This document shows, piece after piece, positions 6,336 through 32,551 of a DNA stretch of 64,000 bases. Made by a program: the position numbers and the translations under genes. The notes beneath the pieces were generated by a model. The model did not search any database. It was not told the origin of the DNA and worked only from the letters and a program-made list of their open reading frames with translations. Positions within the stretch are counted from its first letter, which is position 1; the number at the start of each line of letters is the position of its first letter. The stretch covers positions 1 to 64,000 of the forward strand of contig DUCH01000382.1 in assembly GCA_012959865.1 (NCBI GenBank). Direction: 5' to 3'. The stretch is from Myxococcales bacterium (GTDB lineage Bacteria > Myxococcota_A > UBA9160 > UBA4427).

Positions 6336-6982
6336 CCCGTTCTGGGTCTCCCGCGGACGAATCGGGCCCGCTTCGAACGGACTCGCCGGGGCGCACGCTC
6401 TCGGAAGCCCCCCGCGTGGCGGCAGTGATTCTGGCAGCGGGGTGCTCGAGCCGGATGGGCGGGGCCAATAAGTTGCTGCTGCCCGTTGAGGGCAAGCCGA
6501 TGCTCATTCACGTCGTCGAGGCCGCGTTGGCATCGGGTTTGGCTGCGGTCCGGGTGGTGACCGGCCACGAAGCGGAAAGGGTCAACGACCTTCTCCGGGA
6601 CTATCCGCTGGAACTCGTCCATAACGCGAGCTTCGCCCAGGGAATGAGCAGTTCCTTGCGCTCTGGCCTCGAGTCTCTCGATCAAGACATCGATGCGGCT
6701 CTGGTGTGCTTGGGCGACATGCCCTGGGTGCGGGCGAGTCATCTGCGCGGCCTGGTGAACCGTTTCGCCGCGGAGCGGCCGGGCCCCATTTGTGTCCCGG
6801 TTTACAGCGACCGGCAGGGGAATCCCGTTCTCTGGCCCAGGCGTTTCTTCGATGCCATCTGCCGTTTGCGCGGGGATGTCGGGGCGCGCAGCCTGCTGGG
6901 CCGACACCGTGACGAAATTGCCCGGGTCGAAGTCGCCGACGACGGAGTGACGGTGGATATCGACGACATGGATGCATTATGA
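6332..6982 (+). CDS. MobA-like NTP transferase (MocA-type cofactor cytidylyltransferase)
   Basis: This 216-aa nucleotidyltransferase carries the MobA/MocA signature: VILAAGCSSRMGGANKLLLPVEGKPM (pyrophosphate-binding loop plus catalytic Lys) and the metal-binding CLGDMPWV segment, then GNPVLW and GDVGARSLL. MocA enzymes transfer CMP from CTP to molybdopterin to make the cytosine dinucleotide cofactor used by xanthine-dehydrogenase-family enzymes, which fits its place directly after the split XdhC. About 25 residues precede the conserved core from the GTG at 6332; an internal start is possible, but the 4-bp overlap with the upstream stop supports 6332. CTP versus GTP use cannot be read with certainty. 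Confidence 0.88.
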   Translation: MTRSGSPADESGPLRTDSPGRTLSEAPRVAAVILAAGCSSRMGGANKLLLPVEGKPMLIHVVEAALASGLAAVRVVTGHEAERVNDLLRDYPLELVHNASFAQGMSSSLRSGLESLDQDIDAALVCLGDMPWVRASHLRGLVNRFAAERPGPICVPVYSDRQGNPVLWPRRFFDAICRLRGDVGARSLLGRHRDEIARVEVADDGVTVDIDDMDAL

Positions 6983-17695: not shown

Positions 17696-19303
17696 TCAGC
17701 GATCGAAGCTGTCCGCCCGGGCATTTTGCCAGAAGGGGCTGACCGACTCGGGGATATCGCTGCCCAGAAGCTCGCCGGGTTCGAGGAAATCGTAGAGTTG
17801 ATCGAAGCGCCGAATCTGGTGGGGCGTGGTGCGCTCGTAGAGATGGATGGGCTCGAATTGATCCGGGTGTTCGAGGCCGCAAGCGGCGGTGGTTTCGGCC
17901 AGGCCTTCGAGGGTTCCCTTGTGGAAGAGATAGGCGCGCTCGGCCTTGTCCTCGGGCACGAGGGCTCTTTGCAGGCGCTTGTTCTGGGTAGCGACGCCCA
18001 CCGGGCAGAGATTGGTCCCGCAGAGTTGAGATTGGATGCAGCCGAGGGAGAACATGAAGCCCCGGGCCACGTTGCACCAATCGGCTCCGAGCGCGAGCGC
18101 CGAGGCCATCTCGTAGCTCGCAAAGCGCTTGCCGCTGGCGGCGATCTTGATGCGATCGCGAAGGTGGGTTCCCACCAGTGCATTGTGGACCAGGAGCAGG
18201 CCCTCCCGGAGCGGGTAGCCCAGGTGGTCGGAGAACTCGGGCGGCGCGGCCCCGGTGCCGCCTTCACCGCCATCGACGGTGATGAAATCCGGGGTGATCC
18301 CCGTGTCGAGCATGGCCTTGCAAATCGCGTAGAACTCCCGGGGGTCGCCCACGCAGAGCTTGAATCCTACCGGCTTGCCCCCGGAGAGATCCCGCAATTG
18401 CTGGATGAAATCGAGTAGGCCCGTGGGCGTCGAGAAGGCGCTGTGGCCGGGCGGTGAAAAGCAGTCTTCTCCCATTGGCACCTTGCGCGCGGCGGCGATC
18501 TCGGCGGAGACCTTGGCGCCGGGCAGGATGCCCCCGTGGCCCGGCTTCGCGCCTTGGGAGAGCTTCAACTCGATCATCTTGACCTGGGGCAGGGACGACT
18601 CGTGTTGGAAGAGGTCGGGTGAAAAACCACCTTGATCGGTTCGGCACCCGAAATAGCCCGTTCCCACCTGCCAGATCAGGTCGCCCCCGGGTTCGCGATG
18701 GTGAACGCTCAATCCCCCCTCGCCCGTATTGTGGGCAAACCCACCTCTGAGAGCGCCCATGTTCAGGGCGCGCACGGCGTTCGCGCTGAGGGCGCCGAAG
18801 CTCATGGCCGAGATGTTCAGCAGGGAGGCGGAGTAGGGCTGTGCGCACTCCGGCCCCCCCACCTCCACCCGGAGGTTTCTCCCCGGATCCTCCACTGCGC
18901 TGCTTGGGCGTGCGGAATGGCTCATGAAGCCGTACCCATAGCCATACACATCGAGTTCGGTGCCGAAGGGCTTCACGGCTTCGATGCCCTTCGAGCGCCG
19001 ATAGATCAGATCCCGGGCATCGCGATCGAAGGGGCGACCGCTGGTGTTGCTCTCCACGAAGTATTGGTGGATTTCGGGCCCAGCGCTCTCGAGCAGGAAG
19101 CGCAGATGCCCGAGGATCGGATAGTTGCGCAGGATACTGTGCTTTCGCTGCATCAGGTCGTAGGCCCCGACCGCGAGCAGTCCGCCCGTGGCAGCGACCG
19201 CGAAGTAGAAGATCGGCCAACGGAGCCCCAGCAGGCCGAATGTCGGCAGGAGCAGAAATAAGCCGGGCATCACCCCTCCCCGGATGCGGTTCAGAAAATC
19301 CAT
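17696..19303 (-). CDS. FMN-binding glutamate synthase family protein
   Basis: This 535-aa protein matches the stand-alone FMN/iron-sulfur glutamate-synthase-like domain (GltB central region) with two N-terminal membrane helices (MPGLFLLLPTFGLLGL and YFAVAATGGLLAVGAY). Landmarks are NISAMSFGALSANAVRALN, NTGEGGLSVHH, MIELKLSQGAKPGHGGILPGAKV and FITVDGGEGGTGAAP, with the Cys cluster near CIQSQLCGTNLCPVGVATQ. Classical glutamate synthase needs a glutaminase domain and NADPH subunit, absent here; these membrane-anchored single-domain relatives have no settled reaction. It is divergent from the ThDP enzyme gene and probably in an operon with the luciferase-like gene. Confidence 0.9.
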   Translation of the reverse strand: MDFLNRIRGGVMPGLFLLLPTFGLLGLRWPIFYFAVAATGGLLAVGAYDLMQRKHSILRNYPILGHLRFLLESAGPEIHQYFVESNTSGRPFDRDARDLIYRRSKGIEAVKPFGTELDVYGYGYGFMSHSARPSSAVEDPGRNLRVEVGGPECAQPYSASLLNISAMSFGALSANAVRALNMGALRGGFAHNTGEGGLSVHHREPGGDLIWQVGTGYFGCRTDQGGFSPDLFQHESSLPQVKMIELKLSQGAKPGHGGILPGAKVSAEIAAARKVPMGEDCFSPPGHSAFSTPTGLLDFIQQLRDLSGGKPVGFKLCVGDPREFYAICKAMLDTGITPDFITVDGGEGGTGAAPPEFSDHLGYPLREGLLLVHNALVGTHLRDRIKIAASGKRFASYEMASALALGADWCNVARGFMFSLGCIQSQLCGTNLCPVGVATQNKRLQRALVPEDKAERAYLFHKGTLEGLAETTAACGLEHPDQFEPIHLYERTTPHQIRRFDQLYDFLEPGELLGSDIPESVSPFWQNARADSFDR

Positions 19304-19393
19304 TGGTCGACCTTTCCATGGAAGGTTTGCGAATCGTCGGGGGATGTTACCCTAAACGTTGCGACACATGAACGATGGGAGGAACTCTCCAAG

Positions 19394-21139
19394 ATGGCGG
19401 ACAATGTTTCGAAGAGCCTGCTCGATGTTTTGGCTTCGGCGGGTGCCCGAGATATTTTTGGCGTCACCGGGGACGCGCTGAATCCGCTCCTTGAGTGCAT
19501 TCGCACCGACGACCGCTTTCGCTGGATCGGCGTTCGCCACGAGGAACACGCGGGCTACGCGGCCTACGCCCAGTCCGAACTCAGCGGAGGCATCGGGGTG
19601 TGTGCGGGAACCACGGGGCCGGGGGCGCTCCATCTCATCAATGGTCTCTACAACGCCAAGAAGGAAGGGGGCGCAGTTGTTGCCATAACGGGCCAGGTGC
19701 CGCGGGCCCAGCGGGGGAGTGATTTTCACAAGGAAATCGATCTCGCCAAGATGTTCGACGACATCTGCGGCTACCAGGCCATCATCGACTCCCCGGCCCA
19801 GATGCCGCGCATGGCCGAGATCGCGGTACAGAAGGCGCTGACCGAGCGCATGGTCGTGCGCATCGAAATTCCCTCGGACGTGATCGGCGCCCCGGTTCCG
19901 AGTCAACATTTCAAACGGCCGCTGGTCCGCTTCAAGTCCGACCTGATCCCCGAGCGGAGCGCCATCGAGCGGGCAAGTCAACTCATCGCTCAAGGAAAAC
20001 GGGTGACGCTTTTCTGCGGCATCGGCTGCCGGGATTGCAAGGACGACGTGGTGGCTCTGGCGACCCGGATCGGCGCGCCCATCGCCCATACGCTTCGGGC
20101 CAAGGATATCTTCGACTACGACGACTCCGGCGTCGTGGGAATGACGGGGCTTCTGGGGAACCCCGGCGGCTACCATGCCGTGCGGGATTGCGACGTGCTC
20201 GTGATGCTGGGGACGGATTTCCCCTACGACGAGTTCCTCCCGGACGGCATCGAAATCATCCAGGTGGACCACCGAGCGGATCGCATCGGACTGCGGGCCC
20301 CGGTGACTCTCGGATTGGTGGGGGGCGTGCGTGAAACCCTCGCTGAACTCACGCCCCTTGTCGACGAGAAGCCGCCGTCGCGTTTTCGTGAGCACCTGCT
20401 GAAGATGACGCAGAAATGGCTGGCCCGGATGGACAAGCAGTCCTCCCTGGATCGCACCGACGAGCCGCTGCATCCCCAACTCTTCGCTCGGGCCATCAGC
20501 GATCGCGCCCACGCCGATGCCCTGTTCGCGCTGGATGTCGGCGAGTGCACGATCTGGCTGGCCCGGCAGATGCGGATGCGCGGCGGCCGCCGAATGCTCG
20601 GATCCTTCAACCACGGCTCCCTGGGCGCGGGGCTCCCCGTAGCGCTGGGGGCTGCCGCCCTGGACCCGTCTCGGCAGGTCTGGACCCTGGCGGGCGATGG
20701 CGGATTCGCCATGTCGATGAACGATTTCGTGACGGCGGTGCGTTTCAATTGGCCCATCAAAGTGATCGTCTTCAACAACAGTGAGTTCGGCTTCGTGAAG
20801 ATGGAAATGGAAGTTGCAGGTCTGCCCACGTTCCCCGCCGCGACCAGCCTGGTGAACCCGGATTTTACCGCGTTTGCCAAGGCTTGCGGCGGCGACGGTG
20901 TGCGGGTCGAGCATGCCGATGAGATTCTTCCTGCCATCGACCAGGCGCTGGCCTCGGAGAAGCCGTTTATCATCGATGCCATCGTGAGCGCCGGTGAGCT
21001 GAGCATGCCCCCGCATATATCGCCGCAGGAGGCCTATGGCTTCGGCATCTCCAAGGTCAAGGAGGCGCTGCTGGGGCTGAAGGGAGATCACGAGGTCTGG
21101 AAAGCTTGGCGCGACGAATTTCGGGCGAACGTTTTCTAG
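19394..21139 (+). CDS. ThDP-dependent enzyme, pyruvate oxidase (PoxB)-like
   Basis: This is a 581-aa thiamine-diphosphate enzyme of the acetolactate synthase / pyruvate oxidase group with all three domains. The N-terminal catalytic Glu lies in IGVRHEEHAGYAAYAQSEL and is followed by GVCAGTTGPGALHLINGLY. The C-terminal ThDP motif is GDGGFAMSMNDFVTAVRFNWPIKVIVFNN. DFHKEIDLAKMFDDIC and the domain order resemble quinone-reducing pyruvate oxidase PoxB, which yields acetate and CO2. Lying 28 bp upstream of coxB, it may feed electrons to the quinone pool used by the neighbouring chain; this is inference. Acetolactate synthase or another decarboxylase is the alternative. Confidence 0.88.
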   Translation: MADNVSKSLLDVLASAGARDIFGVTGDALNPLLECIRTDDRFRWIGVRHEEHAGYAAYAQSELSGGIGVCAGTTGPGALHLINGLYNAKKEGGAVVAITGQVPRAQRGSDFHKEIDLAKMFDDICGYQAIIDSPAQMPRMAEIAVQKALTERMVVRIEIPSDVIGAPVPSQHFKRPLVRFKSDLIPERSAIERASQLIAQGKRVTLFCGIGCRDCKDDVVALATRIGAPIAHTLRAKDIFDYDDSGVVGMTGLLGNPGGYHAVRDCDVLVMLGTDFPYDEFLPDGIEIIQVDHRADRIGLRAPVTLGLVGGVRETLAELTPLVDEKPPSRFREHLLKMTQKWLARMDKQSSLDRTDEPLHPQLFARAISDRAHADALFALDVGECTIWLARQMRMRGGRRMLGSFNHGSLGAGLPVALGAAALDPSRQVWTLAGDGGFAMSMNDFVTAVRFNWPIKVIVFNNSEFGFVKMEMEVAGLPTFPAATSLVNPDFTAFAKACGGDGVRVEHADEILPAIDQALASEKPFIIDAIVSAGELSMPPHISPQEAYGFGISKVKEALLGLKGDHEVWKAWRDEFRANVF

Positions 21140-21167
21140 TCATGGGTCGCTGAGGGCCTTTCGGACG

Positions 21168-22232
21168 ATGCAATGGGCGGAAACTATGGGCGGAGGGGTG
21201 AGTTCGCACCCTGGGAATGAGGGGCGTGGTCGGGGCCGGGCAGTCGTTGCCGTGCTGTTGGGAGGCTGGATCGGGTCGGGTCCGGTCTACGCCCAGGGGC
21301 CTGTGCCCTCGATACTTGAGCCCATCGCACAGCCCGCCCAGGCGGTGCTGGACTATGGGCTTGTCCTTGTCCTGGTCTGCGGCGTGATTTTTGTTCTCGT
21401 CATGGGCGCTCTCCTGGTCACCGTGATCCGCTTCCGCGTCCGGGCAGGAGACGACGACCACGAACCGGCTCAGGTCTACGGAAGCGACCAACTCGAAATC
21501 GCATGGACTGTTGCGCCTGTTCTGGTGGTGATCGTCCTCGGTCTCATCACAGCGGGGCGCATCGTCGCGCTTCAAAAGAACGAGGCCCCCGCTGGCAGCT
21601 TGGCGATTCGGGTCACGGGTCACCAGTGGTGGTGGGAACTCGAATATCCTGAATTCGGCTTCACCACCGCCAACGAATTGCACCTTCCGGTGGACCGAGT
21701 GGCCTTCCTGGAACTTCAATCCCAGGATGTGATCCACAGCTTCTGGCTTCCCCAACTCGCGGGGAAGACCGACTTGATTCCCAATCGCCGAAACACGATG
21801 TGGATCGAACCGCACCAGGTGGGAATGGTGGTGGGGCAGTGCGCGGAGTATTGCGGAACCCAGCACGCCAATATGCTGCTTCGGGTATTCATCCACGAAG
21901 AGGCGGAATTCGAGCGTTGGGCACGTGGTCAGCAGAAGGAAGCCCGGATGCTCCCCGGCACCGAGGCCGGGAGAGCGATCTTTGCCAATACGGCCTGCGT
22001 GAACTGTCACACGGTGCGCGGGGTTTCCGAAATCGGCCGATTCGGCCCGGATCTCACCCATTTGATGAGCCGAACCACACTGGCGGCGGGTGCGGCCAGA
22101 AACGATCGGGGGCAGCTCATCGATTGGATTACGAACCCCGACCATTTCAAACCCGGGGCCCGTATGCCGGCGATGAAACTCGACTCGGCCCAGGTGGCTC
22201 AGGTGGCCGATTACCTGTCGAGTCTCGAGTAG
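21168..22232 (+). CDS. coxB: Cytochrome c oxidase subunit II with fused cytochrome c domain
   Basis: This caa3-type subunit II (354 aa) has a signal/anchor segment, two transmembrane helices (VLDYGLVLVLVCGVIFVLVM and WTVAPVLVVIVLGLITAG), the aromatic TGHQWWWELEYPE segment and the complete CuA site CAEYCGTQHANM (Cys225, Cys229, His233, Met236). A C-terminal cytochrome c has its heme motif CVNCH at 277-281 and a likely Met ligand in ARMPAM. It accepts electrons in the periplasm and passes them to heme a in subunit I. It is the first gene of the respiratory cluster; coxA follows after 12 bp. Confidence 0.96.
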   Translation: MQWAETMGGGVSSHPGNEGRGRGRAVVAVLLGGWIGSGPVYAQGPVPSILEPIAQPAQAVLDYGLVLVLVCGVIFVLVMGALLVTVIRFRVRAGDDDHEPAQVYGSDQLEIAWTVAPVLVVIVLGLITAGRIVALQKNEAPAGSLAIRVTGHQWWWELEYPEFGFTTANELHLPVDRVAFLELQSQDVIHSFWLPQLAGKTDLIPNRRNTMWIEPHQVGMVVGQCAEYCGTQHANMLLRVFIHEEAEFERWARGQQKEARMLPGTEAGRAIFANTACVNCHTVRGVSEIGRFGPDLTHLMSRTTLAAGAARNDRGQLIDWITNPDHFKPGARMPAMKLDSAQVAQVADYLSSLE

Positions 22233-22244
22233 GGAGCAGGGGAG

Positions 22245-23921
22245 ATGTCAGCCAGCCTCGGAGCAGATGCAGCCCGCGGGACCTCGAGCGCGGAGGGCCC
22301 GGCTTCCGTTGTGCACGCCTGGGTGACCACGGTCGACCACAAGAGACTCGGCATTCTCTACATCGCGGCGGGCCTGCTCTTCTTTGTGGTGAGCGGCGTC
22401 GAGGCGATCATGATGCGGGCCCAGTTGGCCCAGGCCGCCAACGACCTGCTCGAGCCCCAGGAATTCAACCGGCTCTTCACGATGCACGGCACCACCATGG
22501 TCTTTCTGGTGGGGATGCCCATCGTGACGGGTTTTGGGAACTACTTGATCCCCCTGATGATTGGTGCCCGGGATATGGCCTTTCCCCGGCTCAATGCCTG
22601 GGGGTTCTGGATGTTCCTCTTTGGGGGCCTCGTGCTCTACATGAGCTATTTCGCCAGCATGGGGCTCTACGGCGCGGGCACCGCGCCCGATGTCGGATGG
22701 TTCGCCTACTCACCTCTTTCGGGCAAGGCATTTTCGCGCGGGAATGCCACCGACTACTGGATTCTCGGCATCCTGATCAGCGGCTTTGGCAGCGTGTCCG
22801 GGGCGATCAACATGCTCACCACTACGCTCACCATGCGCTGCCCGGGCATGACGATGAGCCGGCTCCCGCTTTTCGTTTGGATGATGTTGGTGGTTTCGTT
22901 TCTCATGCTCCTTGCCCTACCGGTTCTCACGGGTGCGCAGGTCATGCTGCTCTTTGATCGTTTCCTGGGCGCTCATTTCTTCGATACCCAGGCGGGCGGG
23001 GATGCGGTCCTCTGGCAACACTTCTTCTGGTTCTTTGGCCATCCCGAGGTCTATATCCTGATGATCCCCGGCTTCGCCTACGCGTCGGAGATCATCCCGG
23101 TCTTTTCTCGCAAAGTCATCTTTGGCTACTCCTTCATGGTGGCGGCGACCCTGGCCATCGGGCTGTTGGCGGTGGGTGTCTGGGCCCATCACATGTTCAC
23201 GGTGGGAATGGGGCGGGGCCTCAATATCTGGTTTGCGGTCATCACCATGCTGGTGGGGGTACCCACGGGCATCAAGCTCTTCAACTGGATCGCGACGATG
23301 TATGGCGGCCGAATTCAACTGCGCATGCCGATGGTTTTTTGTATTGCGTTCCTGGGTCAGTTCCTGATCGCCGGCCTTACGGGGATCCTGCTATCCGGGG
23401 CTCCGCTGAACTGGCAGCTCAGCGATTCGTATTTCGTAGTGGCCCACTTTCACTACGTTCTGATTGGGGGACTGGTCTTCACGATCTTTGCGGCCTGTTA
23501 TTACTGGTTTCCCAAGATGACGGGGCGCATGCTCAGCGAGAAGATCGGCCGTTGGCATTTCTGGCTCTTCTTCATCGGCTTTCACCTGACCTTCACCACC
23601 ATGCACGTGCAGGGCATTCTCGGGATGCCTCGACGGATCTATACCTATCCCGTTGAGCGGGGTTGGGAGATCTGGAATGCGATCTCTTCGGCCGGAGCCA
23701 TTCTCCAGGGGCTGGGTGTGGCCTGCTTCTTGATCGCGGTGATCGCGGCTTTCCGGCGTCCCGCCGATGCGGGCCCCGATCCGTGGAACGCCTGGACCCT
23801 CGAGTGGTCGACATCTTCACCGCCGCCGGCCTACAACTTTCTCACCCTGCCCGAGGTTCGAAGCCGTCGTCCGCTCTGGGATTTGAAGCATCCGGACGAC
23901 CCGGATTGGGAGCACGAATAG
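22245..23921 (+). CDS. coxA: Cytochrome c oxidase subunit I, A1-type
   Basis: This is the catalytic subunit (558 aa, 12 helices expected) holding heme a, heme a3 and CuB. The His-Tyr cross-link motif and D-channel Glu are in GHPEVY (His266, Glu268, Tyr270), placing it in the A1 family. The CuB histidines are in VWAHHMFTVGMG. PTGIKLFNW carries the K-channel Lys, and VVAHFHYVLIGG carries heme a and a3 ligands. The MIGARDMAFPRLNAWGFW D-channel entrance is intact, so it should reduce O2 and pump protons. RBS GGGGAG precedes ATG 22245. Confidence 0.97.
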   Translation: MSASLGADAARGTSSAEGPASVVHAWVTTVDHKRLGILYIAAGLLFFVVSGVEAIMMRAQLAQAANDLLEPQEFNRLFTMHGTTMVFLVGMPIVTGFGNYLIPLMIGARDMAFPRLNAWGFWMFLFGGLVLYMSYFASMGLYGAGTAPDVGWFAYSPLSGKAFSRGNATDYWILGILISGFGSVSGAINMLTTTLTMRCPGMTMSRLPLFVWMMLVVSFLMLLALPVLTGAQVMLLFDRFLGAHFFDTQAGGDAVLWQHFFWFFGHPEVYILMIPGFAYASEIIPVFSRKVIFGYSFMVAATLAIGLLAVGVWAHHMFTVGMGRGLNIWFAVITMLVGVPTGIKLFNWIATMYGGRIQLRMPMVFCIAFLGQFLIAGLTGILLSGAPLNWQLSDSYFVVAHFHYVLIGGLVFTIFAACYYWFPKMTGRMLSEKIGRWHFWLFFIGFHLTFTTMHVQGILGMPRRIYTYPVERGWEIWNAISSAGAILQGLGVACFLIAVIAAFRRPADAGPDPWNAWTLEWSTSSPPPAYNFLTLPEVRSRRPLWDLKHPDDPDWEHE

Positions 23922-23924
23922 GAT

Positions 23925-24515
23925 GTGTCTGTGAGTCAGGCATCTGTGTTGGCGATGGATCGAGTCGCCTGGAGCCGGGGACGGGTGGGGATGGCCTGCC
24001 TCATCTTCGGCGAAAGTACGTTCTTCAGCGTTTTCGTGGTGGCCTATCTCTTTTACCTGGGGAAGAGCGCCACCGGCCCGCAGCCCGGCGACGTGCTGGA
24101 GTTCCCGTGGCTCGCCACGGTGTGCCTGTTGTCCAGCAGTGTCAGCGCGGGCCTGGCTGTGGCGGCCCTGGCTCGGGCGGAAACGCTTCGCGCGAGCGCT
24201 TACCTCGCGGTGACGGTGGGCCTGGGTTCGGCATTCATCGCGGCGACAGCTCAGGAGTGGTCCGGGCTCATCCATGGATATGGACTCACCATTGGAACGA
24301 ATCTATTTGGCACCACCTTCTATTCACTCGTGGGTTTTCACGCTGCCCACGTGATTCTCGGATTGCTCATGCTCTCGCTGGTCTTGGCTCTGACGCTCGG
24401 GGGCCGGGTGCGCGCCGAACACGCCGAGCGGGTGGAGATGGTGACCTGGTATTGGCATTTCGTGGACGCGGTCTGGATCGTGGTCCTCACGACCGTTTAC
24501 GTGGTGGGGGTCTAG
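23925..24515 (+). CDS. coxC: Cytochrome c oxidase subunit III
   Basis: This 196-aa, five-helix subunit III has GMACLIFGESTFFSVFVVAYLFY, EWSGLIHGYGLTIGTNLFGTTFYSLVGFHAAHVILGLLML and a C-terminal VTWYWHFVDAVWIVVLTTVYV, all standard family marks. It lacks the two N-terminal helices of long forms, as do many bacterial caa3 enzymes. The GTG start at 23925 is 3 bp after the coxA stop. It stabilises subunit I and its proton uptake. Confidence 0.95.
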   Translation: MSVSQASVLAMDRVAWSRGRVGMACLIFGESTFFSVFVVAYLFYLGKSATGPQPGDVLEFPWLATVCLLSSSVSAGLAVAALARAETLRASAYLAVTVGLGSAFIAATAQEWSGLIHGYGLTIGTNLFGTTFYSLVGFHAAHVILGLLMLSLVLALTLGGRVRAEHAERVEMVTWYWHFVDAVWIVVLTTVYVVGV

Positions 24516-24519
24516 CGGG

Positions 24520-25377
24520 ATGCGCACAGAGACAGGATCCCAGGAAGTGTCCCATGCCGGCGAGGGGGAGGGGCTTGAACTTCCTGCAAATACCACCGCT
24601 CCTTTGTACTTCGCCCTGGGTTTCGCGTTCCTTGGGGTCAGCTTGGTGACCAGCGTGCTCTTTGTTTTCGCCGGGGTGATGCTCGTGCTCTGGGGCGGCA
24701 TCCGATGGTGGGGCGAAGTTCTTCCGCGAGAAAATGAAACGTTCGTCCCTGCCCAGGCCGAGGCCGATCGTGCGCCCCCGGTGGTTCCCACGCCGGGTCG
24801 GGCGCCGGGCCCGGCGGGCGGAGCGGATCGCCATCGTGCACGATTGCCCCTGGAGTACCACCCCTACAGTGCCGGCCTGCGCGCGGGGATTGCGGGCGGG
24901 CTCGCCATGGTGGCGGTGGCCGGGGTTCACGGGCTGATCGTCCAGGGGAGCCTCTGGCATGCCTTCAATGGTTTCGCCGCGCTGGTCCTGCCGCTCTTCG
25001 GGGCCCAGCCGCCCAGCGATATGACGAGTTTTCATGGAGTCGTCGTGCTCGCTGCTGGCATCATTCACATTCTGCTTTCTCTGGGGATCGGGCTCGTCTA
25101 TGCAGCGGTTCTCCCCATGCTGCCCGGTCATCCCCGACTCTGGGGTGGGGTGGTCGCGCCCTTGGTCTGGACCGGTGCCGGCTTCGTCTGCGTCGAGTTG
25201 GTGGTGCCGGGTGCGGTCCAGTCGATCAACTGGCTCGTTTTCATTTTTCTCCAGATGGTGTTCGGCCTGACGGCGGGCGAAGTGATCTCCCGAAGCGAAC
25301 CCGTTCGGACTCTTCAGTCCTATCCACTCACGACACGGGCGGGTCTCGAAGTGGGCGATGAGGAGGAGAGCCCGTGA
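24520..25377 (+). CDS. Polytopic membrane protein of the oxidase cluster, unknown family
   Basis: The 285-aa product has a short hydrophilic start, one long hydrophobic hairpin (PLYFALGFAFLGVSLVTSVLFVFAGVMLVLWGG), a Pro/Ala/Arg-rich linker (about 85-110), and about five further helices. A His-containing segment SFHGVVVLAAGIIHILLSLGIG is notable. The N-terminal hairpin is reminiscent of oxidase subunit IV, but I do not recognise the whole protein. It begins 4 bp after coxC and overlaps the diheme cytochrome start by 4 bp, so it belongs to the respiratory operon, as an accessory subunit or assembly protein. Confidence 0.8.
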   Translation: MRTETGSQEVSHAGEGEGLELPANTTAPLYFALGFAFLGVSLVTSVLFVFAGVMLVLWGGIRWWGEVLPRENETFVPAQAEADRAPPVVPTPGRAPGPAGGADRHRARLPLEYHPYSAGLRAGIAGGLAMVAVAGVHGLIVQGSLWHAFNGFAALVLPLFGAQPPSDMTSFHGVVVLAAGIIHILLSLGIGLVYAAVLPMLPGHPRLWGGVVAPLVWTGAGFVCVELVVPGAVQSINWLVFIFLQMVFGLTAGEVISRSEPVRTLQSYPLTTRAGLEVGDEEESP

Positions 25378-26105
25378 AGCGAACGCCGCTTCTGCTCGCT
25401 TTCGCCCTCGCTGCCGTATTGGGGTGTGATTCCCTTCCGGGCCGCCCGGATCCCGCGGAGCGATATCAGCGGCCCTCGGAAGTCGAGGATTTCGATCGCC
25501 TCTATGCGGCCAATTGCTCGGGTTGCCACGGAGCCGAGGGCCGGAACGGTCCGGCCACGAATCTGGGCGACCCGCTCTTCGCTGCCCTGGCCGATCCCGC
25601 CGAAATTCGCCGGGTCATCGCGGGTGGGGTCACGGGAACCCCGATGCCGGTTTTCGCCCGTCGGCACGGGGGCACGCTCAGCGAAAAGCAGATCGATATT
25701 CTCGCCGCGGGATTGAAGGCGGGTCTGAATGGAGCGGAACCCGCCTCAAGGCTGGCTGGCGCGCCCCCGCTGGTTGCCGAACCCCCTTCGAGCGGCAGCC
25801 CGTCACCCGGCCAGGTCGCGCGCGGCGCGCGGGCCTACACGACTTTTTGCGCGCGCTGTCATGGGGTAGAGGGCGCAGGCGGCGCTTCGGGGGGTTCGCT
25901 CCTTGAGCCCGCGTACCTGGGCCTGGTGAGCGACCAGGGCCTGCGGACCACGGTCATCGTGGGGCGCGAGGACCTGGGCATGCCGGGATGGCAGAGCGCG
26001 GGGGAAAAACCCATGACCGCCGCGGAAGTCGCCGAAGTCGTCGCTTGGCTGGGGTCGCATCGGATTTCCCCCGTCGTCGTCGCACCCGGCTCGTCCATCC
26101 AGTGA
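25374..26105 (+). CDS. Diheme cytochrome c lipoprotein
   Basis: This 243-aa protein has a lipoprotein signal (lipobox VLGC) and two class-I cytochrome c domains. Heme motifs CSGCH (48-52) and CARCH (159-163) are visible, with Met-ligand candidates in GTPMPVF and DLGMPGW. Anchored on the outer face of the membrane, it is well placed to carry electrons between the Rieske/cytochrome b complex and the CuA subunit. GTG 25374 overlaps the preceding stop (GTGA); the Rieske gene follows after 25 bp. Confidence 0.93.
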   Translation: MKRTPLLLAFALAAVLGCDSLPGRPDPAERYQRPSEVEDFDRLYAANCSGCHGAEGRNGPATNLGDPLFAALADPAEIRRVIAGGVTGTPMPVFARRHGGTLSEKQIDILAAGLKAGLNGAEPASRLAGAPPLVAEPPSSGSPSPGQVARGARAYTTFCARCHGVEGAGGASGGSLLEPAYLGLVSDQGLRTTVIVGREDLGMPGWQSAGEKPMTAAEVAEVVAWLGSHRISPVVVAPGSSIQ

Positions 26106-26130
26106 ACTGAGAAGAGGCAGGAGAGAAAAC

Positions 26131-26664
26131 ATGGAGCCCCACGAACATCCTCCGCTCCCGCCGGCCGTGCCGCCGGTGACGCGCCGGGATTTTCTTTTCA
26201 AGCTCGGTCTGGGCTTGAACGCGATCGCCGCGGCTTTCGTGGGCATTCCCATCGTGGGCTATATCGCGTCGGCTCTCTTCAGGCCCAAGGCGCAGCAAGC
26301 CTGGATCGCCCTGGGCAAGATCGCTCAGTTTCCACCCGGGGAAACCCGCCTCGCATCCTACAGGAACCCCTTCACTACGCCCTGGGATGGAGCCACGGCG
26401 GACATCCCCTGTTGGGTCCGGCGCAAGCCCGATGGAGATTTCCAGGTCTTCGCCATCAATTGCGCCCACCTCGGCTGCCCGGTCCGCTGGTTTCCGCAAT
26501 CGGGTCTCTTCATGTGCCCGTGCCATGGCGGCGTTTACTACGAGGACGGGTCCCGGGCTTCGGGTCCGCCGCCCCGGGGCTTGTTCGAATATGCTTACCG
26601 CGTGCGTCGCAATCGTCTCGAGGTCAGGGGCGGCCAGACCCCGAATCTCTCGGAGCCCGTCTAG
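26131..26664 (+). CDS. qcrA: Rieske iron-sulfur protein of a bc-type complex
   Basis: This is a 177-aa ubiquinol/menaquinol:cytochrome c reductase Rieske protein. An N-terminal RRDFLFKLGLGLNAIAAAFVGIPIVGYI segment has a twin-arginine start and serves as a membrane anchor. The [2Fe-2S] ligands are in CAHLGCPV (Cys111, His113) and CPCHGG (Cys129, His132), with the disulfide pair Cys116/Cys131. The downstream Gly-rich segment, YYEDGSRASGPPPRGLFEY, forms the usual Pro loop. AGGAGAGAA precedes the ATG. It is translated with cytochrome b 12 bp later. Confidence 0.96.
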   Translation: MEPHEHPPLPPAVPPVTRRDFLFKLGLGLNAIAAAFVGIPIVGYIASALFRPKAQQAWIALGKIAQFPPGETRLASYRNPFTTPWDGATADIPCWVRRKPDGDFQVFAINCAHLGCPVRWFPQSGLFMCPCHGGVYYEDGSRASGPPPRGLFEYAYRVRRNRLEVRGGQTPNLSEPV

Positions 26665-26676
26665 GAAGATGACCCC

Positions 26677-28152
26677 ATGAATCGACTTCGGGCAATCGGA
26701 AAATGGTTCGATGATCGGCTGGCCTTGGGGCGTCTCTACGATGATACCCTCGGGCATCGCATTCCCTTTTCCTCTTCGAGTTGGTGGTACGTATTTGGCA
26801 GCGCGACGCTGCTCTGCTTGATTCTTCAATTGGTGACGGGGGTCTGCCTTGCCCTGGTCTACGTGCCGTCCCCCGACCAGGCCTATGCGAGCCTCGAGTA
26901 CCTGGACTACGAGCAACCCTTGGGCTGGTACCTGCGCGGGCTGCACTACTGGGGTTCGAATTTCATGGTGGCCCTGGTGACGATTCACCTGGTCCAGGTC
27001 TTCCTCTTCGGGGCCTACAAATATCCGCGCGAACTCACGTGGGTGGTGGGCAGCGCGCTCTTCCTGGCGACCATCGGGATGGCGTTCACGGGGCAGACCA
27101 TGCGCTTCGATCAAGATGCCTACTGGGGCGTGGAGATCATCGTTTCGATTCTCGGCCGACTCCCGCTCGTGGGGGAATACGCCACCCACCTGCTCCAGGG
27201 TGGCCCCATTGTGGGCGCCGAGACTCTGTCGCGTTTCTTCACCCTCCATGTCTTCGTGATCCCGGCCACGCTGATTGGCCTGCTGGTGATCCATATTCGA
27301 CTGGTGCTGGTCCTGGGCATCAGCGAGTACCCGCAGCCGGGGAAGTCGGTCGATCCCGAGACCTATGCCGAGGACTATGAGCAGGTGGTGGAGCACACCG
27401 GAATCCGCTTGATGCCCGAGGGCGGAGGCAAGGACCTGGTGTTCTCGGCCCTGGTACTGCTCGGCATCGTGCTCTGCGCCGCATTGATCGGCCCGAAGAT
27501 CCCCAACGGTCCCGCCGACCCCTCGCTGATTCACACCGTGCCGCGCCCGGATTTCTATTTCCTCTCGCTCTTTGCCGCCTTTGCCCTGATGCCGCCCTAT
27601 CTCGAGAGCTTTGTCATCGTCTACGTGATGCCCCTGGCGGTGGTGCTTCTTTTCGCGGTGCCCTTCATTTCCCGAGGCGGCGAGCGCCATCCCAGCCGCC
27701 GACCCGGAGCGGTCATCCTGGTGATCCTGGTGGTGACCGGGCTCTTCACCCTGGCCTGGGAGGGCGTTCTTTCTCCGTGGTCGCCCGAGATGGATGCATG
27801 GAGCGGGGTCCCGGTGCAGTCGCGCTACGTCGAGGGGCGCTCCCCCCTCGAGCATATGGGCGCAACGGTTCTACAAGCCAAGCAGTGCAGGAACTGCCAC
27901 GCCCTGGACGGGGCGGGGGGCAAAAGAGGGCCGGACCTCGCGGGCGTCGCGACTCGCCTCACCGAAGATCAGTTGATTCGCCAAGTGCTCCAGGGCGGAG
28001 GCAACATGCCCGCCTACGGGAACCAACTCTCCCCCCACGAGGTGACCGCGCTGGTGGCTTTCCTGACGACTCTTCATGACGAGGGCCTGGCCCCGGCCCG
28101 GGACTCGGCCTCCTGGGCTCGGACCTCCCGGGAGTCGCCGGCACCGCGATGA
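26677..28152 (+). CDS. qcrB: Cytochrome b (bc-type complex) with C-terminal cytochrome c
   Basis: This 491-aa fusion has a full-length cytochrome b with heme-ligand helices (HYWGSNFMVALVTIHLVQVF and LHVFVIPATLIGLLVIH) and a quinol-site motif PDFY at 291-294, where ubiquinol enzymes have PEWY. Several C-terminal helices follow. A cytochrome c domain carries CRNCH at 404-408 and GPDLAGVATRL. The b/c fusion is known from menaquinol:cytochrome c reductases and here replaces a separate cytochrome c1. PEWY variants have been linked to lower-potential quinones, so menaquinol use is suggested but not shown. It overlaps the next gene (ATGA). Confidence 0.95.
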   Translation: MNRLRAIGKWFDDRLALGRLYDDTLGHRIPFSSSSWWYVFGSATLLCLILQLVTGVCLALVYVPSPDQAYASLEYLDYEQPLGWYLRGLHYWGSNFMVALVTIHLVQVFLFGAYKYPRELTWVVGSALFLATIGMAFTGQTMRFDQDAYWGVEIIVSILGRLPLVGEYATHLLQGGPIVGAETLSRFFTLHVFVIPATLIGLLVIHIRLVLVLGISEYPQPGKSVDPETYAEDYEQVVEHTGIRLMPEGGGKDLVFSALVLLGIVLCAALIGPKIPNGPADPSLIHTVPRPDFYFLSLFAAFALMPPYLESFVIVYVMPLAVVLLFAVPFISRGGERHPSRRPGAVILVILVVTGLFTLAWEGVLSPWSPEMDAWSGVPVQSRYVEGRSPLEHMGATVLQAKQCRNCHALDGAGGKRGPDLAGVATRLTEDQLIRQVLQGGGNMPAYGNQLSPHEVTALVAFLTTLHDEGLAPARDSASWARTSRESPAPR

Positions 28153-30374
28153 ACGCATCGGCGCTATGGGCTACGAACTGGTCCCTGGGCCCTGGGATTT
28201 TATTCCCGCTGGCGATTTCGGCCTGGCTCTACCTGCGCGGCTTCGAGCGGGTACGCCGGCAAAGTCCTGGGCATTTTCCACCCTGGAGGCGGGTTGCCTT
28301 TCTTCTGGGTCTGGGTCTGCTTCTCGTTGCGCTGGCCTCTCCCCTGGACGCGGCGGCGGATCTGCTCCTGACGGCCCACATGGTGCAGCACTGGCTGCTC
28401 ATGATGGTGGTGCCTCCGCTGATCTGGGCGGGTGCACCCAACGTGCCCTTGCTGCGGGGCCTTCCGGGGGACTGGCTGTCGCGGGGCGCGGGGCCGCTGC
28501 TTTCATCCCCGACGCTCAAGCGCGGCGTGCGGATCTTCACCCATCCGGGCGTCGCCTTGGGACTCTGGATCCTCGCGACCCTCGGTTGGCATTGGCCCCC
28601 CGCCTACGAGTTTGCGCTCCAGTCCAGAGCCGCCCATGACATGGAACACCTGAGTTTTCTGGGCTCTTCCCTCCTGCTTTGGTTTTGCATCCTCCAGCCC
28701 TGGCCCGTCAGGGCGCCCACACCCTTTCCCATGCGTCTGCTCCTGGTGGTGGGGGCAGGGCTCTTCAACTCGCTCTTTTCCGCGGCGTTTGCTTTTTCCG
28801 CGGCGCCTTTCTATTCGCTCTATGCCTCGGTCCCGAGTCCCTGGTCGATCGACGTCCTGGAGGACCAGAACGTGGCGGGCGCGTTCATGTGGGTTGCGGG
28901 AAGCCTGAGCATGATTGCGGCTGCGGTGGGCCTGGCCCTCGCGGGTCTCGCCCCGCGCGAACTGGGTTCCCGGCGCGTGCCGCGACGCCAGCGGGCAGCG
29001 CCGCCCCGGGTCGGGTCCGGGCGAAGTTGGATCGTCTCACGGCGCTTGCGCCGTGGAGCACAGTGGGTCCTGGCCGCCATTGCGGCCGGGGTGATGCTCG
29101 ATGGCTTTCTGGGGTCCCAGATTCCGAGTAGCGAGAATCTTGCCGGCGTTCTTCCCTGGACGTATTGGCGCCCGCTCTCGCTGTTCGCGCTTCTGGCCCT
29201 GGGCAATCTGTTCTGCGGGATCTGTCCGCTGACCCTGTCGCGAAACCTCGCGGCGCGTCTTCTGGGTCGGCCCTTTCGCTGGCCCCAATGGCTCCAGAAC
29301 AAATGGCTACCCGGGGCGCTCTTCGTGTTCTACCTGTGGAGCTACGAAATGCTCGACCTATGGGACCGTCCCCGTGCGACGGCGGCCTGGATCGCCGGCT
29401 TCTTCGTGCTCTGTTTCCTGGTGGAGGGCCTCTTTCGGCGGGGGACGTTTTGTCGCTACGTATGCCCGGTCGGGCAGTTTCAATTCGTTCATGCGGCCCT
29501 GTCCCCCAACGAAGTGCGCCCGCTCTCGCCTTCGATCTGCTCGGATTGCACCACCCACGACTGCCTTCGAGGCGGCTCGGAAGGACCCGGGTGCCCAACG
29601 GAGCTCTATCTGCCCGCAAAAAAGGGCAATCTCGACTGCACCTTTTGCCTCGACTGTGTTCGCGCATGCCCTCACGACAATGCCGGGTGGGTGAGCGTGA
29701 CGCCCGGGCGCTCGCTGGGCCAGGGGCGCGCGGCGGCCCGGGTATACGGCCTTGACTTGGGTGTGCTGACCGTGCTTTTTGTCTGGGGCGCGTTCGTGAA
29801 CGCTATGGGGATGTCGCGCCCCTTCGTTCGGGCCCAGGCTGCGCTTGCCCACGAATTGGGGTTTTCCTCGGGCCTCGGCTTCGATTCGGCTGTGCTGCTG
29901 GGGGTGCTCTTGCTCGCGCCGGTCTTCTTTCTTTCGTTCTGTGCGGTGGCGGGGCGCTGGCTCGCACGCACTTCTCTTTCTATGGGCGAAATGGTGTCTC
30001 GCGTGGTTCCGGCGCTGGTGCCCCTTGGACTTGCCATGTGGGTCGCGCACTTCGGTTTCCACCTGGCGACGGGGTTCTTCAGTTTTATTCCCGCAAGCCG
30101 GCGCGCTCTGGGCTCACTCTCTGGGGAGTCGATGGTGTCGGTTACCCGAGCGCCCTTGAACCTGGCTTGGCTGACCGATGCCCAACTCCTCGTTCTTGGT
30201 CTCGGTCTCGTGATCAGTCTGGGGGTTCTCTGGCGAATTGGTCGAGAGATCCTGCCCGAACCCGGGCGCGCGCTGCGACTGATCCTTCCCTGGTCGCTCC
30301 TGGCGCTCGCGCTCTGGGGCCTGGGGCTGGTGACCTTTCTTGCTCCCATGCAGATGCGGGGGATGGGCGCTTGA
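28149..30374 (+). CDS. CtaG-like oxidase assembly domain fused to FixG/CcoG-like iron-sulfur membrane domain
   Basis: This is a 741-aa two-part membrane protein. Residues 1 to about 270 match the caa3_CtaG-type assembly factor: SPLDAAADLLLTAHMVQHWLLMMVVPPLIWAGAP, HDMEHLSFLG and several helices with His pairs; this family helps build the CuB centre. After a basic linker (about 275-305), residues about 310-741 resemble polyferredoxin membrane proteins of the FixG/CcoG/NapH/NosR kind. They include FCGICP (about 354), CRYVCPVGQ (about 435), CSDCTTHDC (about 463) and a 4Fe-4S motif CTFCLDCVRACP (about 496), then more helices. CcoG reduces Cu(II) during cbb3 maturation, so this fusion may join copper reduction to insertion. 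I do not recall the fusion as described. Confidence 0.88.
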   Translation: MNASALWATNWSLGPGILFPLAISAWLYLRGFERVRRQSPGHFPPWRRVAFLLGLGLLLVALASPLDAAADLLLTAHMVQHWLLMMVVPPLIWAGAPNVPLLRGLPGDWLSRGAGPLLSSPTLKRGVRIFTHPGVALGLWILATLGWHWPPAYEFALQSRAAHDMEHLSFLGSSLLLWFCILQPWPVRAPTPFPMRLLLVVGAGLFNSLFSAAFAFSAAPFYSLYASVPSPWSIDVLEDQNVAGAFMWVAGSLSMIAAAVGLALAGLAPRELGSRRVPRRQRAAPPRVGSGRSWIVSRRLRRGAQWVLAAIAAGVMLDGFLGSQIPSSENLAGVLPWTYWRPLSLFALLALGNLFCGICPLTLSRNLAARLLGRPFRWPQWLQNKWLPGALFVFYLWSYEMLDLWDRPRATAAWIAGFFVLCFLVEGLFRRGTFCRYVCPVGQFQFVHAALSPNEVRPLSPSICSDCTTHDCLRGGSEGPGCPTELYLPAKKGNLDCTFCLDCVRACPHDNAGWVSVTPGRSLGQGRAAARVYGLDLGVLTVLFVWGAFVNAMGMSRPFVRAQAALAHELGFSSGLGFDSAVLLGVLLLAPVFFLSFCAVAGRWLARTSLSMGEMVSRVVPALVPLGLAMWVAHFGFHLATGFFSFIPASRRALGSLSGESMVSVTRAPLNLAWLTDAQLLVLGLGLVISLGVLWRIGREILPEPGRALRLILPWSLLALALWGLGLVTFLAPMQMRGMGA

Positions 30375-31063
30375 TGCGGGGATGGGCGACGAGCGACGAC
30401 GCTTCCTCGGCGCAGCCCTGGGCTCTGCGAGGTTCGGAAGGGCGAGGGCGACCTTGGCGGCGGCGAGCGAATTTTCTTGCGCTTGTGTTTGCGCTTGTGT
30501 TTGTGCTTGTGTTTGTGCTCGCGCTTGTCGGGGTTCCCGGTGCCGCGGCGGATATGGGCCTTCCCCTGGGATCGGGGATGGCGGGGCCCTACCGGGTTGA
30601 CCTGGTCGCCTTTCCGGCCCCGCTCCGGGTGGGGGACGCCGTCTTCAGTGTTCTCATCCGTGAGCGCGAGAGCGGAGCGGTGCGCACCGATCTGGACGTG
30701 CGTGTCGAAGTGGGCGCAGAAGGTGACGCGCGTGTCGACATGGGCGTAGAAGGTGACGGAGGGATGCCGGAGACATCGGTCGGCCGCGCCGAAAAGGGAA
30801 GGCATCCCGGCTTTTATTCCATCCAGGTTCGATTGGCGCAGGCGGGTCGCGGGGGGGTCGCGATCGCGATCAAGCCCCAAGTCGGTGAGTCCAGCGCAGC
30901 GGAGGCGAGACTGAATTTTCTCTTCGACACGCTTCCTGCGCCCAAGCCATGGCGGCAACACGCGGGCGCGATCGCCTTTCCCTTCGGACTGATCGCTCTT
31001 TTCGTCTGGCACCAGAGGCGACGCGCGGCAGGACGCCCGGCGGGAAGGGCAAAGCGACATTGA
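30374..31063 (+). CDS. FixH/YtkA-like membrane-anchored protein
   Basis: This 229-aa protein starts at ATG 30374, sharing one base with the previous stop (TGATG). It has an Arg-rich cytoplasmic lead, a transmembrane helix built from an in-frame 12-bp repeat (residues 36-51), a periplasmic beta-sandwich (MGLPLGSGMAGPYRVDLVAFPAPLRVGDAVFSVLI) with a duplicated ten-residue segment (109-128), then a second C-terminal helix and a basic tail. The periplasmic part resembles FixH/YtkA-like domains, which accompany FixG/CcoG in cbb3 oxidase maturation. Following a CtaG-FixG-like fusion, it probably serves the same assembly job. Fold assignment is by pattern only. Confidence 0.78.
   Translation: MRGWATSDDASSAQPWALRGSEGRGRPWRRRANFLALVFALVFVLVFVLALVGVPGAAADMGLPLGSGMAGPYRVDLVAFPAPLRVGDAVFSVLIRERESGAVRTDLDVRVEVGAEGDARVDMGVEGDGGMPETSVGRAEKGRHPGFYSIQVRLAQAGRGGVAIAIKPQVGESSAAEARLNFLFDTLPAPKPWRQHAGAIAFPFGLIALFVWHQRRRAAGRPAGRAKRH
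30479..30526 (+). repeat. In-frame 12-bp tandem repeat coding a transmembrane helix
   Basis: Four units in register: GCGCTTGTGTTT (30479), GCGCTTGTGTTT (30491), GTGCTTGTGTTT (30503) and GTGCTCGCGCTT (30515). They encode ALVF-ALVF-VLVF-VLAL, i.e. the hydrophobic core of the FixH-like protein's membrane anchor. Copy number change would alter helix length by four residues without a frameshift. Confidence 0.9.
30698..30757 (+). repeat. In-frame 30-bp tandem duplication
   Basis: 30698-30727 and 30728-30757 are near-identical (26 of 30 bases) and encode VRVEVGAEGD then ARVDMGVEGD, two tandem copies of a ten-residue acidic strand-turn in the FixH-like protein. It is the second in-frame duplication in the same gene. 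Confidence 0.88.
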
Positions 31064-31173
31064 CTTCGTATCGGGCGCGAGCGCTCGCGACGACTTCGCA
31101 TCGATGGAGAGACCTACCGTCCCCTCCGTCGAGTCGTCCGCAGCCGATCGCGGAAGCGCAGCTCGAATTCGCC

Positions 31174-32400
31174 CTACGGGTCCGAGCCGGGCTCAGGCCC
31201 CCGGGCCAGCGCTGCGGCCCGCGCGACCGCCTCGGCCAGGGGAAGGCGCGTGACCTTGGGAAGCGGAGCCTCAGTGTCGCGCTCCCCGACCCAGCGAAAG
31301 GTCATGAAGCCGCGCTCGTGGCCCGCGGTTTCCAGGGAGTTCGCGTGGGCGGTGGGCTCCTGGGCGACCAGGAAGCGCACCATGCCGTCCGGGTCGGGTT
31401 GGACATTGTCGTGGGTCAGGGAAGTTCGTCTCTGGTTGTAGTCCACCGACTCGTGCCAGGGGTTCTCGATGGCGAAGTTCCAGAAACGCACGTCCAGGGG
31501 TTCGACTTCGACCAGCAATCCCTCGTCGGGTCCGATCGCGTAGGTACTGATGAGGTAGAGGTTGTCGGGGCTGCTGATATCCGCCCCAAAATCATCGCTG
31601 TTCCGTCGCAGGAATCGGTTGGGCGGGGAATCGATGGAAGGAGATACGTAGCGATGGAGCAGACCAATGCCTTGCACGGCGAAGCGGGTGCCGTGGATTG
31701 CCCGGGCGACCTCGGCGTCGGTGGAAGCCGGCAGAGGATCGAAGCGTTCACGGCCCACCACTTCCACCTGGAACTCAGCCGCTTTCTCCTCCTCCCGGTC
31801 GCCAAAGTATTGTCGAACGAGAACCGAGCCGAAGCCGGGGCGCGTCTGGATCCAGGCACCCGGGGCTTGGGGCTTCTCAGTACTGAGCCAGAGCGTGAAA
31901 TTTCCATCGGCATCCGCGCCGAGAGTGCGCTCGTTCGCGTAGCCCAGGGATTGGCTGCGGCCCGTGCGTTGCATGGCGAGGACGCTGAATGAAAGGTGAT
32001 CCACGGTTCCGATATTTCCGGTGATCTTGTAGTCCCGTTCTCCGTCCCAAGCGAGAGTGTGGTACTCGCCGTCGGGATTGTCTCCGCCTACTTTCCGCCT
32101 GCCCGTGTCCATGCGCGCGAAGTGGGGGGCAGGAGCGTAACCGTCGCCGGTGACATCCTGGCTCATGGCCAAGGTCCGTAGGATGAATCGCATTCCCTCG
32201 GCGGCTTCGCGTTCGCTCCGAGCGTCGGTGAGGATCGCTTTTCGCAGTTCCTGCAACTTTCCCATCAACTGGTCGAAAGCAATTACGCTCTGTAGCTCGG
32301 AGTAGGGAAGGGCGGCCGATTGCTCCTCATCAGCGACCGCTGTGGAAACCCAACTCGAGGACAGGGTCAGGACGATGAGGAAAGGTAGCAAGCGTAACAT
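31174..32400 (-). CDS. DUF1214-like protein (copy 2, exported)
   Basis: This 408-aa DUF1214-like protein has a clear Sec signal peptide (LLPFLIVLTLSSSWVSTAVA), so it should be periplasmic or secreted. It shares the family's core with the other two copies: GGDNPDGEYHTLAWDGERDYKITG, FTLWLSTEKPQAPGAWIQT, WNFAIENPWHESVDYNQRR and HERGFMTFRW. It lies 151 bp after the SDR gene on the same strand, the last member of a sulfotransferase / DUF1214 / SDR / DUF1214 run. Function is unknown. The 110-bp convergent gap to the FixH-like gene includes a 14-bp perfect palindrome at 31076-31089. Confidence 0.87.
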   Translation of the reverse strand: MLRLLPFLIVLTLSSSWVSTAVADEEQSAALPYSELQSVIAFDQLMGKLQELRKAILTDARSEREAAEGMRFILRTLAMSQDVTGDGYAPAPHFARMDTGRRKVGGDNPDGEYHTLAWDGERDYKITGNIGTVDHLSFSVLAMQRTGRSQSLGYANERTLGADADGNFTLWLSTEKPQAPGAWIQTRPGFGSVLVRQYFGDREEEKAAEFQVEVVGRERFDPLPASTDAEVARAIHGTRFAVQGIGLLHRYVSPSIDSPPNRFLRRNSDDFGADISSPDNLYLISTYAIGPDEGLLVEVEPLDVRFWNFAIENPWHESVDYNQRRTSLTHDNVQPDPDGMVRFLVAQEPTAHANSLETAGHERGFMTFRWVGERDTEAPLPKVTRLPLAEAVARAAALARGPEPGSDP

Positions 32401-32551
32401 GAAGGCTCCTTGGGTCAGTGGCGGACGCCTGCACGCCTCTGCGCGATGGCGACCTTGGTTTCAAATTCGACTCTCTCGCGGGGTGGTGAATGAATGTTTC
32501 AGCGAAATACGTTTATTGGAGGATGGCCAGGGCCACGGTCGTGGGCTCGTT

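Follow-up and report, generated by a model that had tools for sequence, protein, structure and literature searches.

An iron-sulfur membrane unit of the NapH/CcoG superfamily fused to caa3_CtaG in bc-caa3 oxidase operons

We found that a gene of the window, by which we mean the whole 64,000-nucleotide stretch of Myxococcales DNA analyzed here, encodes a single chain in which a caa3_CtaG domain is joined to an iron-sulfur (Fe-S) membrane unit of the NapH/CcoG type, and that this fusion, as judged from sequence, is real, old, and widespread, occurring in at least four phyla. The locus reads as an A-type CtaG/YtkA-like assembly set to which a redox half of the NapH/CcoG superfamily has been added. 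We lean slightly toward a role for the fusion as an electron-fed factor in which reduction of Cu(II) to Cu(I) is coupled to copper insertion at CuB. The preliminary description of this DNA had pictured a hybrid copper machine: joint copper reduction and insertion is still the idea that fits best, while the notion of a cbb3/aa3 hybrid built with FixG and FixH falls, because the C-terminal half (C-half) is not CcoG/FixG and the gene that follows is nearer to YtkA/CtaK than to FixH.

The fusion gene (28149..30374, + strand) is a single open frame of 741 aa running from an ATG start to a TGA stop, and its translation contains no internal stop. Its start shares 4 nt (ATGA, 28149-28152) with the end of the upstream cytochrome b gene, and its stop shares one base with the start of the next gene (TGATG at 30374); given these overlaps, the genes of the operon appear translationally coupled. 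The three cysteine motifs that had been quoted for the C-half are all present, namely FCGICP (C356, C359), CRYVCPVGQ (C435, C439), and CTFCLDCVRACP (C497, C500, C503, C507). The source is a fragmented MAG (88% complete, 7.5% contamination), a circumstance that would favor reading the fusion as an artefact of gene calling or assembly, or as a decayed gene. We give that reading next to no credence, since the same two-domain frame is found in the close relatives of the window and, among the best 80 of 292 relatives from named genomes, all 80 independent loci carry one open frame that covers both halves with no stop or frameshift between them, isolates such as Lacipirellula limnantheis I41 and Acidobacteriaceae KBS 96 included, which rules out a frameshift; the whole chain also yields one confident structure model. 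In one genome (G010), an apparent split of the fusion falls at two contig ends and provides no evidence for separate genes.

The N-terminal half contains a caa3_CtaG domain with 7 transmembrane (TM) helices (28224..28937, + strand; aa 26-263), which scores 195.7 bits against Pfam Caa3_CtaG (PF09678; cut-off 27.7) and, together with the single frame, bears out the earlier view of one 741-residue chain joining a CtaG domain to an Fe-S membrane domain. Against the NCBIfam equivalog for the Bacillus-type caa3_CtaG (TIGR02737), the score is 49.1 bits for a cut-off of 279.35; by these scores the half belongs to the same superfamily and lies outside the Bacillus equivalog. Candidate ligands on the periplasmic side are H77, M78, H81, H148, H163, H167, and D239, which are kept in 77-78 of 78 aligned fusions, and loop charges place them at the outer side in an N-out topology. 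In agreement with this, the caa3_CtaG family is known for conserved outer-side His residues and an invariant Asp, D249 in B. subtilis (PMC8239418), to which D239 was equated by motif rather than by alignment to the B. subtilis protein. The two proteins thus share a 7-TM domain, outer-side His residues, the invariant Asp, and a gene that ends a caa3 operon, but CtaG of B. subtilis consists of one domain, whereas the window protein adds a 9-TM Fe-S half after it. Between the halves lies an Arg-rich linker placed in the cytoplasm (28950..29039, + strand; aa 268-297), with a mean of 8.2 Lys plus Arg per sequence and a pLDDT below 50 at residues 271-289. The AlphaFold2 model of the chain, built from 78 sequences (pLDDT 88.8, pTM 0.68), contains 7 + 9 long helices, is less certain in the cluster loop, and supersedes an earlier model from 13 sequences that was poor in the Fe-S half. 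No solved structural relative was found by sequence, and the best match by fold (E 0.23) is meaningless.

The Fe-S core that follows (29040..29708, + strand; aa 298-520) contains 12 cysteines, arranged as C356xxC359P, C435xxxC439P, CxxCx4Cx9C (464, 467, 472, 482), and CxxCxxCxxxC (497, 500, 503, 507), all of them invariant in 78/78 aligned fusions and all placed at the inner, cytoplasmic side by loop charges. On this pattern, the core has the cysteines for two predicted [4Fe-4S] clusters and for two membrane CxxCP/CxxxCP pairs. With hhalign, it aligns to a NapH-like profile over 172 columns (E 1.3e-8) and to a CcoG profile over 70 columns confined to the Cys core (E 5.6e-10), each comparison profile being small, with 3 sequences; E. 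coli YccM, described as a homologue of CcoG that lacks the Ig domain (PMC7558416), is 29% identical to the C-half (E 9e-9). These matches sustain the broader assignment to a NapH/CcoG-type Fe-S membrane unit. The narrower FixG/CcoG identity that had been given does not hold: the C-half scores 18.8 bits against TIGR02745 (CcoG/FixG; cut-off 316.7), no better than the 19.5-21.3 bits against TIGR02163 (NapH; cut-off 213.05), and its first membrane Cys motif is CxxCP, compared with two CxxxCP in CcoG. In Pfam, the C-half reaches 19.4 bits with Fer4_5, below threshold. In place of the C-terminal periplasmic Ig-like domain of CcoG, which was not found, the model shows five helices (29751..30371, + strand; aa 535-741) bearing M555, H634xxxH638, and M734xM736RG. 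By loop charges, M555, H634, H638, M734, and M736 lie at the outer, periplasmic side; M555, W631, H634, and H638 are kept in 78/78 fusions and M734/M736 in 75-76/78, and a periplasmic loop, NLAGVLPW, is near-invariant among them. Score, motif spacing, and C-terminal region thus exclude a true CcoG/FixG, and the score lies under the NapH family cut-off as well. The C-half is best placed, on these profiles, as a member of the NapH/CcoG/YccM superfamily that is distantly related to CcoG, with NapH about equally close.

CcoG, which contains two [4Fe-4S] clusters, has been measured to reduce Cu(II) and is needed for the CuB-containing CcoN (PMC7558416). With CcoG/FixG/RdxA and YccM, the fusion shares two membrane Cys pairs and the Cys residues for two [4Fe-4S] clusters, and with CcoG an oxidase-assembly setting; it differs from CcoG, for which Cu(II) reductase activity has been shown, by its 5-TM His/Met tail and by its A-type rather than cbb3 oxidase, in addition to the score, spacing, and C-terminal region given above. 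With NapH/MauN, it shares the core fold and the 12-Cys pattern, but those proteins have neither a CtaG partner nor a 5-TM tail.

Relatives of the C-half without CtaG were analyzed in 237 genomes of the phylum, where fusions score 560-644 bits and other full-length relatives 171-220 bits. These relatives retain the tail motifs HxxxH and MxMR. Some carry an N-terminal HMBD heavy-metal-binding domain, which exceeds the cut-off in L157 (37.2 bits) and L160 (35.7 bits) and stays under it in L156 (18.8 bits); others lie in NapA/NapG-like operons and contain what we read as a FixH-like stretch. The redox half therefore has a history both with heavy metal and with electron transfer fed by quinol, and these relatives point toward metal and quinol-fed electron transfer for the fusion as well. 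Such a background would also suit a NapH-like quinol dehydrogenase that delivers electrons to a non-copper target while the oxidase matures (subunit II at its CuA cysteines, the heme a3/CuB site for its first reduction, or the YtkA-like protein, for example), leaving the CtaG half alone to insert copper. That the NapH-like alignment spans the whole 172-column core, that C-half relatives occur in NapA/NapG-like operons, and that the NLAGVLPW loop and the His/Met tail could form a quinol or partner site all speak for such a protein, which we consider possible but less likely than not, given that the nearest non-fusion relatives include HMBD fusions and that CtaG is the copper factor of caa3, copper being common to both.

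Within family f18 of the phylum (L156:6717-8657, L157:6274-8082, L160:7352-9250), the Fe-S/His-Met unit is combined with a secreted heavy-metal-binding domain, possibly forming a stand-alone metal reductase. In a second group of these relatives, proteins of 1100 aa (L036:11948-15253, L037:2-3199) and 850 aa (L161:6093-8642) combine a FixH-like stretch with a relative of the fusion C-half; the L036 and L037 proteins carry a NapH-like half too, and those of L036 and L161 adjoin NapA/NapG-like genes, a composition that may represent an unusual nitrate-reductase-like electron module.

Upstream of the fusion, all on the + strand, lie oxidase subunit II of the caa3 type (coxB, 21168..22232; TIGR02866, 181.4 bits, over the cut-off), with the CuA motif CAEYCGTQH, read from the translation, and a C-terminal cytochrome c (CVNCH at aa 277); subunit I (ctaD, 22245..23921; TIGR02891, 705 bits, cut-off 670.75), with the A1-type motif GHPEVY at aa 265; subunit III (ctaE, 23925..24515; PF00510, 70 bits); a 285-aa membrane protein conserved in the operon, with no Pfam or NCBIfam match (24520..25377); a di-heme c-type cytochrome (25374..26105; PF13442, two stretches); a Rieske Fe-S protein (26131..26664; PF00355, 31.7 bits); and a cytochrome b with a C-terminal cytochrome c (26677..28152; PF00033, 147 bits; PF13442, 51.7 bits). 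By the motifs of subunits I and II and the cytochrome c of the latter, the adjoining oxidase is of the A1-type caa3 class, as had been noted. We found no Rfam RNA in 19000-32500. The 285-aa protein, a candidate subunit or assembly factor, appears as two separate matches in some Planctomycetes (L075, L093, L109, L115). Directly upstream of coxB (19394-21139), a pyruvate oxidase/PoxB-like thiamine enzyme is encoded, which is kept beside the operon across the family (L022-L032), at times inverted or downstream, hinting at a link from pyruvate to the respiratory chain.

The gene downstream of the fusion (30374..31063, + strand) encodes a protein with a signal peptide, a small beta domain, and a C-terminal TM anchor, a layout read from the alignment. 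It scores 15.3 bits against YtkA (PF13115; cut-off 25.9) and does not match FixH (PF05751); within its family, 20/30 members match YtkA (best E 2.1e-5) and 8/30 match FixH, mostly weakly. The follower thus looks more like YtkA/CtaK than like FixH, by resemblance and not by membership, so that the earlier report of a FixH-like gene sharing a base with the fusion keeps its shared base and loses its label. In B. subtilis, YtkA (CtaK) acts as an oxidase factor (PMC13344008), a role that also appears in a title cited in PMC9145763, and CtaG is likewise a known caa3-assembly factor there (PMC13344008, PMC9145763); nothing specific to cbb3 therefore need be invoked. The likeness of the follower to B. 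subtilis YtkA/CtaK consists of a sub-threshold similarity and of the oxidase-assembly context, and leaves the C-terminal anchor out of the comparison.

Searching the species-genome collection with an alignment of the family returned 292 relatives, and the locus counts given here come from the best 80 of these. Their record titles name Myxococcota, Planctomycetota, Verrucomicrobiota, and Acidobacteriota, with a few other groups (e.g., Spirochaeta; labels taken as given), so that the two-domain architecture recurs in at least four phyla; isolates among them include Planctomycetes bacterium TBK1r besides the two named above. Closer to the window, 18/61 genomes matched, and 11 besides its own contain a full-length or nearly full-length fusion at 44-77% identity. 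No record of the plasmid collection covers 80% of the query, the matches listed there spanning one half only. Among the best 80 of 292, the loci with more than 7.5 kb upstream are preceded, in same-strand order of transcription, by coxB, ctaD, ctaE, and the gene for the 285-aa protein in 46/50 cases, and by the di-heme, Rieske, and cytochrome b genes in 45/50; a YtkA-like homologue lies within 1.5 kb downstream in 66/74. The CtaG and Fe-S halves have co-diverged, their distances being correlated (Mantel r 0.83, 0/999 permutations). Small trees set the fused CtaG domains apart from the others by a branch with SH-aLRT 91, and the fused Fe-S cores by one with SH-aLRT 85, which allows a single origin of the fusion and does not prove it.

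This near-fixed position in the oxidase operon, with its overlapping starts, also bears on a role in copper transport or detoxification, in which the Fe-S half and CtaG would reduce Cu(II) for import or export and help the oxidase only indirectly. CcoG affects copper tolerance too (PMC7558416), and CtiP of C. glutamicum, which joins CopD to CtaG, was proposed to be a copper importer (PMC9145763). CtiP resembles the fusion in pairing CtaG with another membrane domain, to which copper handling is attributed, and is needed for bc1-aa3; its CopD partner, however, is N-terminal and has no Fe-S clusters, whereas that of the fusion is C-terminal and redox-active by motif. Given the operon position, and with no recognized copper-efflux gene among the operon genes in Pfam or NCBIfam, a transport role seems clearly improbable.

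We further compared 40 genomes, 36 of them with the fusion. Cox11 was found in none of the 40 (0/36 with the fusion), and Sco in all 40. SCO1/SenC matches number 11 in the genome of the window (G000) and 9 apiece in two sister genomes, which exceeds the count in most others searched; several of these may be other thioredoxin-fold proteins. The window contains no cbb3 subunits, as the preliminary description had stated, the fusion gene adjoins no cbb3 genes (ccoGHIS), and the source genome (88% complete) gave no match for ccoN, CcoG, or Cox11. CcoG exceeds its cut-off in 4/40 genomes, all of which have ccoN, above the cut-off in three and as a contig-edge fragment in the fourth. The fusion is present in two of them (G008 and G083), together with canonical ccoN and CcoG, which rules out a restriction of the fusion to genomes lacking cbb3; the suggested link with absence of ccoNOP survives as a tendency, with these 2/36 fusion genomes as exceptions. 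The fusion is the sole caa3_CtaG in 31/36 fusion genomes, while one has two fusions and four add an unfused CtaG. In three Acidobacteriota (G068, G069, G071), the unfused CtaG adjoins a second, plain caa3 operon with no bc genes detected; the fused form thus accompanies the bc-caa3 operon. An order-level relative (G049, L035) has a bc-caa3 operon with an unfused CtaG, no Fe-S half, and no detected YtkA-like gene, so that the Fe-S half is not indispensable.

Based on these observations, the coupled model that we lean toward would work as follows. The fusion would be dedicated to assembling the A1-type caa3 oxidase of its own operon. Electrons would enter from the quinol pool or from a donor in the cytoplasm, travel through the Fe-S clusters, and convert Cu(II) to Cu(I). 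With the periplasmic YtkA-like protein assisting, this Cu(I) would pass to the CtaG half for insertion at CuB of subunit I, and possibly at CuA as well; coupling the two steps would guard Cu(I) from reoxidation or leakage. Both the reduction of Cu(II) and the transfer of Cu(I) to CuB are inferred steps, and the role of caa3_CtaG at CuB rather than CuA is itself putative. Active caa3 in B. subtilis requires CtaG, whose target, CuA or CuB, is unsettled (PMC9145763, PMC13344008), and loss of CtaG leaves an inactive, heme-containing caa3 that copper does not rescue (PMC9145763). The model is favored by the oxidase operon upstream (46/50) and the YtkA-like gene downstream (66/74), by the invariant cysteines and CtaG ligands, by the distribution of Cox11 (0/40) and Sco (40/40), by the correlation between the halves (r 0.83), and by the fused CtaG being the only one in 31/36 genomes. 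Against it, the clusters are cytoplasmic and the CtaG site periplasmic, with the path of electrons and copper across the membrane unexplained; one bc-caa3 operon (G049/L035) manages without the Fe-S half; and that half is only distantly related to CcoG, with NapH about equally close. NapH moves electrons and has, to our knowledge, no role with copper. A wider generalization, on which we would put even weight for and against, is that the fusions form a new class of assembly factor, found in at least four phyla, whose Fe-S reductase, fed by quinol or from the cytoplasm and covalently joined to a CuB insertase, would couple Cu(II) reduction to Cu(I) insertion into A-type oxidases, replacing Cox11.

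Archaeoglobus CopZ offers a parallel, as a copper-delivery protein joined to an Fe-S domain that reduces Cu(II) (PMC7558416), although it is cytosolic and not a membrane protein of the family of the fusion. Full-text searches of open-licence papers gave no description of a CtaG Fe-S fusion; a description elsewhere is possible. How copper reaches CuB without Cox11, whether CuB is truly the target of caa3_CtaG, and whether oxidase assembly calls for a Cu(II) reductase of its own are open questions in the field (PMC9145763, PMC13344008), and a 2026 study of B. subtilis considered that a local cupric reductase is possibly needed and noted that Firmicutes have no CcoG homologue (PMC13344008). A conserved fusion of CtaG with a putative reductase is "Rosetta stone" evidence tying reduction to insertion for A-type oxidases, suggesting that copper is reduced where it is loaded into the oxygen-consuming enzyme, and the isolate genomes that carry the operon make the coupled model testable.

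One of these isolates, Acidobacteriaceae KBS 96, contains a second CtaG frame of 531 aa (L167, about 5909-6673, - strand) that ends in a cytochrome c-like stretch (CPTCH) and may be another CtaG fusion.
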